A DNA stretch of 64,000 bases. Origin: Pseudomonadota bacterium. Lineage in GTDB: Bacteria > Pseudomonadota > Gammaproteobacteria > Steroidobacterales > Steroidobacteraceae. Of the stretch, positions 19,885 through 22,064 are shown one piece after another. The notes under the pieces were generated by a model, which searched no databases, had not been told where the DNA came from, and worked only from the letters and a program-made list of their open reading frames with translations. Every line of letters starts with the position of its first letter. The stretch's first letter is position 1. The translations under genes were made by a program, and so were the position numbers. Location of the stretch: assembly GCA_021785405.1 (NCBI GenBank), contig JAJYFF010000003.1, forward strand, positions 43,434 through 107,433, in the 5' to 3' direction.

Positions 19885-20080
19885 TTTGGCGCCGCCTGCG
19901 GTGTTCGATGCGGATCGGGTTACCTCTCGACCCTAATTCGTAAACCCCAGGGACTCAGGCTTGCTGGCAACATTGTGCAAGTCCGCCTCGAGCGGAAAGC
20001 CTTAATTGCCGCAGTCGGTCCCACCTGTTGCTCAGGTCGGGAGCAAAGGTCCAAAACGGCACAGGCGGGTGGCGCCATCC
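19885..20080 (+). ncRNA. ssrS: 6S RNA (SsrS), approximate boundaries
   Basis: Canonical location between zapA and fau; noncoding ~200 nt with a terminal stem pairing GGCGCCGCCTG (~19888-19898) with CAGGCGGGTGGCGCC (~20062-20076). Confidence 0.78.
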
Positions 20081-20099: not shown

Positions 20100-20696
20100 A
20101 TGAAGACCGGCAAAACGGCCTTGCGCTCCGAATTGCGCGCGCGGCGGCGCGCGTTGACCCCTGAGGAACGTGCGGCGCGCTCACGCGCCGCGGCACTCGT
20201 GATCACCCGACTGCCGCGCTTCGCGGCGGGTTCGACCGTCGCGATCTACGTGCCGATGCACAGCGAACTCGACACCTCGTTGCTGATCGCGAGTGCGCGC
20301 CGGCGCGGCATCCGCCTGTTCCTGCCGGTCGTCGTGGACCGGCGGCGGCGCGCGCTGCGCTTCTATCCGCTCGACGGGCAGATGCGTCCGGGGGCATACG
20401 GGATTCCCGAGCCGCGGCGAGCCGGACGCCCGGTCGGTGCGCGGTGGCTGAACCTCGTCGTCGTACCCCTGGTCGGGATCGATCGTCACGGCCATCGGCT
20501 CGGGATGGGTGGTGGGTATTACGATCGGGCGTTCGCGTTCCGCGCGCGGCGCCGCACCTGGCGGGGACCGCGCTTGATCGGCATCGCGTTCGATTGCCAA
20601 TGCGTCGAGGCGATCCAGGCCGAGCGCTGGGATCTGCAGCTCGATGCGCTCGCGACCGAGAGCGGCTTGACCACGTTCGCAAGGGCGCACCGATGA
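20100..20696 (+). CDS. fau: 5-formyltetrahydrofolate cyclo-ligase
   Basis: KTALRSELRARRRALTPEERAARS, VVVPLVGIDRHGHRLGMGGGYYDRAF. Confidence 0.95.
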   Translation: MKTGKTALRSELRARRRALTPEERAARSRAAALVITRLPRFAAGSTVAIYVPMHSELDTSLLIASARRRGIRLFLPVVVDRRRRALRFYPLDGQMRPGAYGIPEPRRAGRPVGARWLNLVVVPLVGIDRHGHRLGMGGGYYDRAFAFRARRRTWRGPRLIGIAFDCQCVEAIQAERWDLQLDALATESGLTTFARAHR

Positions 20697-21157
20697 ATCA
20701 TTGGCTGCTGAAATCGGAGCCGGGAACCTTCGGGATCGACGACCTCGCGGCCCGGCCTCGCAAGGTCACCGCGTGGGATGGCGTGCGCAACTTTCAGGCG
20801 CGCAACATGCTGCGCGACGATTTCCGCAAGGGCGATCGGGCGTTCTTCTACCACTCCGGCTGCGCCGAGCCGGGCATCGTCGGCATCGTCGAGGTGGCTC
20901 GAGAAGCCTACCCGGACCCGACCGCATTCGATCCGCAGGACGCGCACTACGATCCGATCGGCACGCCCGATGCGCCGCGCTGGTACGTCGTCGACGTGCG
21001 CCTCGTCCGCAAGCTCGATCGCGTGATCACGCTGCAGGAGCTGCGTTCGCACGCGCGGGGCAAACTTCGGGATCTGTTGATCCTGAGACGCGGCAACCGA
21101 TTGTCGGTGACGCCGGTGACGAAGGCCGAGTGGGACTTCATCCTCTCGCTCGAGTGA
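20693..21157 (+). CDS. EVE domain-containing protein
   Basis: MNHWLLKSEPGTFGIDDLAARPRKVTAWDGVRNFQARNMLRDDFRKGDRAFFYHSGCAEPGIVGIVEV; ATGA overlap with fau stop. Confidence 0.95.
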   Translation: MNHWLLKSEPGTFGIDDLAARPRKVTAWDGVRNFQARNMLRDDFRKGDRAFFYHSGCAEPGIVGIVEVAREAYPDPTAFDPQDAHYDPIGTPDAPRWYVVDVRLVRKLDRVITLQELRSHARGKLRDLLILRRGNRLSVTPVTKAEWDFILSLE

Positions 21158-21199
21158 ACGCGGCTACCACATCCGCGCGGGTTACATGTGACGTATTGC

Positions 21200-21227
21200 T
21201 TGTAATTTGATGATTCGTGTATATACT
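21200..21227 (+). promoter_or_regulatory. Sigma70-like promoter upstream of the Lys/Ala micropeptide gene
   Basis: TTGTAA (21200-21205), 16 bp spacer, TATACT (21222-21227), in a locally AT-rich stretch of otherwise very GC-rich DNA. Confidence 0.7.
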
Positions 21228-21263
21228 CGGTCCCCGGACTAACCCGACAACGGAGTTTTCAAC

Positions 21264-21329
21264 ATGGCAGCGAAAGCGAAGAAGGCCAAGAAAAAGGTAG
21301 CCAAGAAGAAGGCGGCCAAGAAGAAGTAA
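21264..21329 (+). CDS. 21-aa Lys/Ala-rich basic micropeptide MAAKAKKAKKKVAKKKAAKKK
   Basis: ATG at 21264, TAA at 21327-21329, CGGAG ribosome-binding site about 10 nt upstream, own promoter and terminator. Shorter than the ORF-track cut-off. Confidence 0.75.
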   Translation: MAAKAKKAKKKVAKKKAAKKK

Positions 21330-21345
21330 GCCTTCGAATTGAACC

Positions 21346-21378
21346 GACTGTGCCCGCGAAAGCGGGCACAGTCGTTTC
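21346..21378 (+). terminator. Intrinsic terminator after the micropeptide ORF
   Basis: GACTGTGCCCGC-GAAA-GCGGGCACAGTC perfect 12 bp stem (21346-21373) followed by GTTTCTG. Confidence 0.75.
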
Positions 21379-21395: not shown

Positions 21396-22064
21396 GTGGA
21401 CACACGCGCGAAGAAGCGAGCGGCGGCCGAAGCGGCGCTGCGTTACGTCGAGGACGACATGGTCCTCGGGATCGGTACCGGCTCGACCGTTGACGAGTTC
21501 ATCGGCGCGCTCGGGGCGAGCCGATTGCGATTGCGCGGCGCGGTCGCCAGCTCCAACGCGACCTCCGCGCGCCTGAAGGCAGCCGGGATTCCGGAACTCG
21601 ACTTGAACAGCGCCGGCGACCTCCCGCTGTACGTCGACGGCGCCGACCAGGCGACGCCGCAAGGCGCGTTGATCAAGGGCGGCGGCGGCGCGCTGACCCG
21701 CGAGAAGATCGTCGCGGCCGCATCGGTTCGGTTCGTCTGCATCATCGACGACGGGAAGCTGGTCGACGTGCTCGGCGCGTTCCCGCTGCCGATCGAAGTG
21801 ATTCCGATGGCCCGCTCCTACGTCGCGCGGCGCGTGGTCGCGCTCGGCGGCGAGCCGGTGTGGCGGCAGGACGTCGTGACCGACAACGGCAACGTGATCC
21901 TCGACGTGCACAACCTGCGGATCGAGGACCCGGTCGAACTGGAGGCCCGCATCGACGCGATCGCGGGGGTCGTCACCGTGGGCTTGTTCGCGCGACGCGG
22001 CGCCGACGAACTGCTGATCGCGGGGGACGACGGCGTCCGCCGGATTACGACCGCGACGCCCTGA
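21396..22064 (+). CDS. rpiA: Ribose-5-phosphate isomerase A
   Basis: [66 protein letters not shown] start. Confidence 0.96.

Follow-up and report, generated by a model that had tools for sequence, protein, structure and literature searches.

The window analysed here, a 64,000-nucleotide stretch of a Steroidobacteraceae genome, contains between the genes for an EVE-domain protein and RpiA a micropeptide gene that is, as judged by sequence comparison, genuine and conserved, with selection acting on its protein product. With a probability that we put at roughly 0.6, the gene is translated into a minimal polycation of H1-tail type and is a miniaturised orthologue of the longer Lys-rich H1-like protein, probably a binder of DNA or polyphosphate, that many gammaproteobacteria encode at zapA-6S-fau-[EVE]-X-rpiA. 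The locus order in the window is zapA-6S-fau-EVE-X-rpiA, where X is the micropeptide gene, and its features are as follows.

19890-20075, + strand: 6S RNA (ssrS), Rfam RF00013, 70.8 bits.
20695-21157 (start approximate), + strand: gene for the EVE-domain protein, the upstream neighbour, syntenic.
21196-21227, + strand: promoter, with the probable -35 box TTGCTT (21196-21201), 18 nt and TATATA (21220-21225, within GTATATACT); conserved in relatives and matched by a scan.
21228-21263, + strand: 5' leader CGGACTAACCCGA...GGAG, with the Shine-Dalgarno at 21252-21255, 8 nt ahead of the ATG.
21264-21329, + strand: micropeptide ORF, ATG...TAA, 21 aa, MAAKAKKAKKKVAKKKAAKKK; frame kept, with an excess of synonymous changes.
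21346-21373, + strand: 12-bp GC-rich hairpin GACTGTGCCCGC-GAAA-GCGGGCACAGTC, once per genome, with compensatory changes and a poor T-tract.
21396-22064, + strand: rpiA, the downstream neighbour, GTG start, syntenic.

A preliminary description had proposed this ORF and characterised its product as a Lys/Ala-only peptide with 13 Lys. The ORF is present exactly as described; counted residue by residue, MAAKAKKAKKKVAKKKAAKKK comprises 12 Lys, 7 Ala, 1 Val and the Met, with no Pro, which corrects the Lys count and adds Val and Met to the composition. The same description had made its case depend on conservation of the reading frame in sister genomes, where the frame is indeed kept and changes are mostly synonymous. 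Minimum codon changes were counted within groups of equal length, for which the neutral expectation is about 26% synonymous. The 21-aa congener-type group has 19 synonymous versus 5 nonsynonymous changes (P = 1e-7), the 16-aa group 19 versus 3 (P = 4e-9) and the 17-aa group 5 versus 0 (P = 1e-3), while two further equal-length groups give synonymous to nonsynonymous ratios of 14:5 and 16:7; made without a tree, the counts are lower bounds and the P values (1e-3 to 4e-9) are approximate. These patterns show strong purifying selection on the peptide, and conservation excludes a chance origin of the ORF. Its being far shorter than its orthologues might suggest a non-functional relic of a decayed H1-like gene, which is extremely improbable, as frame, Shine-Dalgarno and promoter are intact in about 120 distinct loci and the strong purifying selection had already disfavoured it.

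The promoter named in the preliminary description, TTGTAA-16-TATACT, was recovered by a scan for sigma-70-like sites (1 site vs 0.3 expected in 2 kb), and the AT-rich island said to hold it is a real dip in the intergenic region (45-51% GC vs about 68%). Its -35 box stands less well, as TTGTAA is not kept in the alignment of relatives across the order, whereas TTGCT (21196) and GTATATACT are (almost) invariant in 16 members of the family and 26 members of the order. Because the relatives keep these two elements, the -35 box is probably TTGCTT, separated from TATATA by 18 nt, rather than TTGTAA. The order of elements in the family is TTGCT, GTATATACT, CGGACTAA, GGAG and ATGGC. GGAG is invariant in the order alignment, and 104 of 123 distinct loci have it 7-8 nt from the ATG (82 loci at 7 nt, 22 at 8 nt). 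The leader motif CGGACTAA is invariant in the family and is not kept in other families of the order. In the window, positions 21228-21247 after the -10 box are GC-rich (CGGTCCCCGG); this stretch, or CGGACTAA, possibly serves growth-rate control or as a regulator site.

Of 23 congeneric genomes examined by DNA search, 22 have promoter, leader, Shine-Dalgarno, ORF and hairpin at the same locus. Other genera of the family carry the unit too, and in nearly all cases its neighbours are EVE and/or fau and rpiA, as far as the contig extends. A leader sequence model, R1, used at a threshold of E <= 0.1, matched 221 of the 298 genomes sampled from the order, nearly always once per genome; within Steroidobacteraceae, 88 of the 89 sampled genomes match, as counted from the listing. 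When a promoter and leader pattern from which the ORF had been left out was run against public genomes, it returned 119 stretches, 112 of them with a complete Lys-rich ORF, 3 cut by the contig end, 2 with an interrupted ORF and 2 with none. Both matches without a Lys-rich ORF come from records labelled Clostridia and Bacteroidetes. Read from ATGGC, the family peptides are 14-26 aa long, mostly 16, 17, 21 and 22 aa, with a single exception of 61 aa; the peptide of Steroidobacter agaridevorans SA29-B, Peristeroidobacter soli and Peristeroidobacter agariperforans, named isolates that identify the family as Steroidobacteraceae, is MATKAKKSAKKKGGKKKAAKKK, and the first two of these species encode the 22-aa form. 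Two loci that apparently represent one chimeric or gapped assembly were excluded from the evidence. The 61-aa version has KAKAKVKT repeats behind a typical family leader and is either a re-expansion or a retained intermediate.

Downstream of the ORF, the preliminary description had seen a GAAA-loop terminator closing an autonomous transcription unit. The 12-bp hairpin is perfect and covaries: standard pairs fill 99.4% of pair cells across 13 distinct variants, compensatory change is seen at 5 of the 12 pairs, and none of 500 shuffles scores as high for covariation. A terminator scan found none, the T-tract GTTTCT being too poor to pass. The pattern GACTGTGCCCGC-NNNN-GCGGGCACAGTC (core TGTGCCCGC) occurs exactly once per genome in 24 of 25 scanned family genomes and was absent from all 15 scanned genomes of other families; a dispersed repeat was rejected on the basis of this single copy. 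The rpiA gene starts 22 nt past the hairpin, and a promoter of its own would not fit between the two in this genus. The unit, with its promoter, leader and hairpin, is therefore only partly autonomous. We read the micropeptide gene as the first cistron of an X-rpiA unit in which the hairpin is probably a leaky terminator or a protective 3'-end hairpin; most transcripts would end there and some read-through would supply rpiA.

The same arrangement, a short Lys-rich ORF, then a GC hairpin, then a gene that has no room for a separate promoter, would also suit a leader peptide rich in Lys that, as it is translated, governs read-through into rpiA by Lys-tRNA attenuation or poly-Lys stalling. We consider this very unlikely, as rpiA has no link to lysine, the predicted fold shows no competing antiterminator, and the stop codon lies at very different distances from the hairpin (across the family, the median to its core is 61 nt), with an extra hairpin in some members. 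Furthermore, orthologues reach full size (58-198 aa), and positions other than Lys (A/T/S/G/V) are also conserved. A small regulatory or dual-function RNA that acts through the leader CGGACTAA and the hairpin is quite unlikely as well. It would account for the nearly invariant leader in the family, for the covarying hairpin and for a predicted transcript that folds far better than its shuffles (z = -5.6, mainly owing to the hairpin), but not for the synonymous excess within the ORF. Rfam gave nothing credible over the ORF, and other families of the order keep the Lys-rich ORF and not CGGACTAA.

The preferred reading, a protein-coding gene descended from a longer one, draws on what occupies the same slot elsewhere. 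In most other families of the order (f3 to f7 and part of f10), the product of slot X, behind a homologous promoter and leader, is a Lys-rich H1-like protein of 61-195 aa. A second model, R2, run across the class, matched 23 genomes outside the order, and in 22 of these a Lys/Arg-rich ORF of 58-198 aa lies directly behind the leader, nearly always by fau and/or EVE; the single match without such an ORF was judged to be due to chance. For the fau/EVE-rpiA-linked H1-like gene, a class defined here, the micropeptide gene has the position, the promoter and leader (TTGCT...GTATATACT...GGAG...ATGGC) and the Lys-rich MA-start composition of the product, at 21 aa versus the usual 58-198 aa, a shortness that appears to have arisen twice. 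As low-complexity sequence alone cannot prove homology, orthology to the long forms is drawn from synteny and the common promoter and leader, which also back the resemblance to H1-like tails pointed out in the preliminary description. Most simply, an ancestral H1-tail-like protein would have given rise to the micropeptide as its miniaturised orthologue, the long forms being widespread and therefore most simply ancestral.

In a tree of RpiA, the short f10 forms (20-28 aa, 7 rows) group together (SH-aLRT 89) as a clade nested in f10 (96) and apart from family f1, although RpiA is a weak marker of species when used by itself, with f1 split and f5 placed inside part of f1 at low support. From this nested position away from f1 we infer that shrinkage to 14-28 aa has occurred at least twice, in the family of the window and in the f10 clade. 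It is possible, if somewhat short of probable, that the whole family and an independent second lineage each swapped an H1-like chromatin or granule protein of about 100-200 aa for a peptide of 14-28 aa while keeping promoter, locus and function. If so, no natural H1-like protein would be smaller, and the peptide, which has apparently not been described before, would serve as a genetically encoded counter-ion of polyamine type. The natural length variants, 14-198 aa under one promoter, bear on the question of how short a working H1-like tail can be.

The ZapA-6S-Fau-EVE-RpiA neighbourhood is known in gammaproteobacteria, where a published report connects it with a proliferation or stationary-phase switch (PMC7641849), and the window has the same gene neighbourhood. 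The Lys-rich, H1-like gene present here is unmentioned in the searched text of that report, and literature searches returned no report of the micropeptide or of a slot gene between fau/EVE and rpiA. The findings tie an overlooked micropeptide to an H1-like gene that is syntenic across the class and lies next to 6S RNA and EVE. Cut-offs on ORF length in annotation and tryptic proteomics, which cuts at every Lys, would be expected to miss such a nearly family-wide gene.

Several known proteins offer a comparison for what the peptide might do. AlgP (AlgR3) of Pseudomonas aeruginosa has a PhaF-like C-terminal tail that is Lys/Ala-rich, disordered and H1-like, as the micropeptide is, and varies in repeat number; DNA is bound both by the C-terminal domain and by KPAA peptides, and AlgP is found at polyphosphate granules, which it organises (PMC9239181). 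Of the 352 aa of AlgP, about 124 make up an N-terminal alpha-helical domain, and the protein has KPAA repeats, whereas the micropeptide is 21 aa in total, has no such domain and no Pro and sits at fau-EVE-X-rpiA. It was rejected as an AlgP member for want of the N-terminal domain and the KPAA repeats. Hc2 of Chlamydia (PF07382) and BpH1 of Bordetella share the almost pure Lys-rich short-repeat composition and vary naturally in length through repeat gain and loss (PMC2848022); Hc2 has 165-237 aa. Against the HC2 profile, only one long relative matched (13.7 bits vs a cut-off of 40), and against NF038053 (Burkholderia-type histone H1-like DNA-binding), the composition of which is akin to that of the long orthologues, one of these matched weakly (14.9 bits vs a cut-off of 80); the micropeptide matched neither. 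Scans of four micropeptides against Pfam and NCBIfam likewise gave no match, peptides of this size being too short for family libraries. By composition, the micropeptide would work like AlgP, HC2 and H1-like proteins, though it stays below the Pfam HC2 and NCBIfam cut-offs.

We favour a charge-driven binder of nucleic acid or polyphosphate, because tails of like composition bind DNA, AlgP organises polyphosphate granules and Hc2 and BpH1 vary in length. The peptide would be well expressed and, with Ala at position 2, would lose its initiator Met. A disordered chain with 12 Lys in 21 aa, and more than half Lys across the 14-22 aa forms, would be a polycation that binds polyanions, whether chromosomal DNA, RNA or polyphosphate, through its KKK blocks with small residues as spacers. 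By analogy with the C-terminal tails of AlgP, PhaF, Hc1 and Hc2, it could serve as a small peptidic counter-ion adjusting the compaction of nucleoid or granules, its length probably tuned down from that of a longer polyanion binder.

A polycation of 14-21 aa may have many binding partners. Small basic ribosome-associated peptides such as bTHX and eL41 may offer an analogy, and the peptide could act mainly on the ribosome or RNA, as a ribosome-associated or hibernation peptide, rather than on nucleoid or polyphosphate. Size, charge and single-copy, family-wide conservation fit such a role, and the 6S RNA neighbour and the GC-rich discriminator suggest growth-phase control. We nevertheless hold it to be unlikely, since a length that ranges from 14 to 198 aa among orthologues does not match a ribosomal protein seated in a fixed pocket.

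As for paralogues, a DNA search listed no second Lys-rich tract in the genome of the window, though such tracts are listed in some congeners; a protein search of the window's genome with a 147-aa long form gave no match, a result that is uninformative on paralogues because the query is of low complexity and a positive control was lacking. About one fifth of the distinct family loci carry an extra lineage-specific GC-rich hairpin after the ORF stop and ahead of the conserved one, mostly with 16-17 aa forms and with no T-tract (for example CTCGGCGGCCGC-TTCG-GCGGCCGCCGAG). Two loci typical of the family come from records that bear the names Candidatus Planktophila lacus and Janthinobacterium lividum, and these metagenome-assembled genomes are probably mislabelled. 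Six contigs end inside the unit, as is common for metagenome contigs, and the breaks probably stem from a conserved, repetitive stretch common to co-assembled strains.
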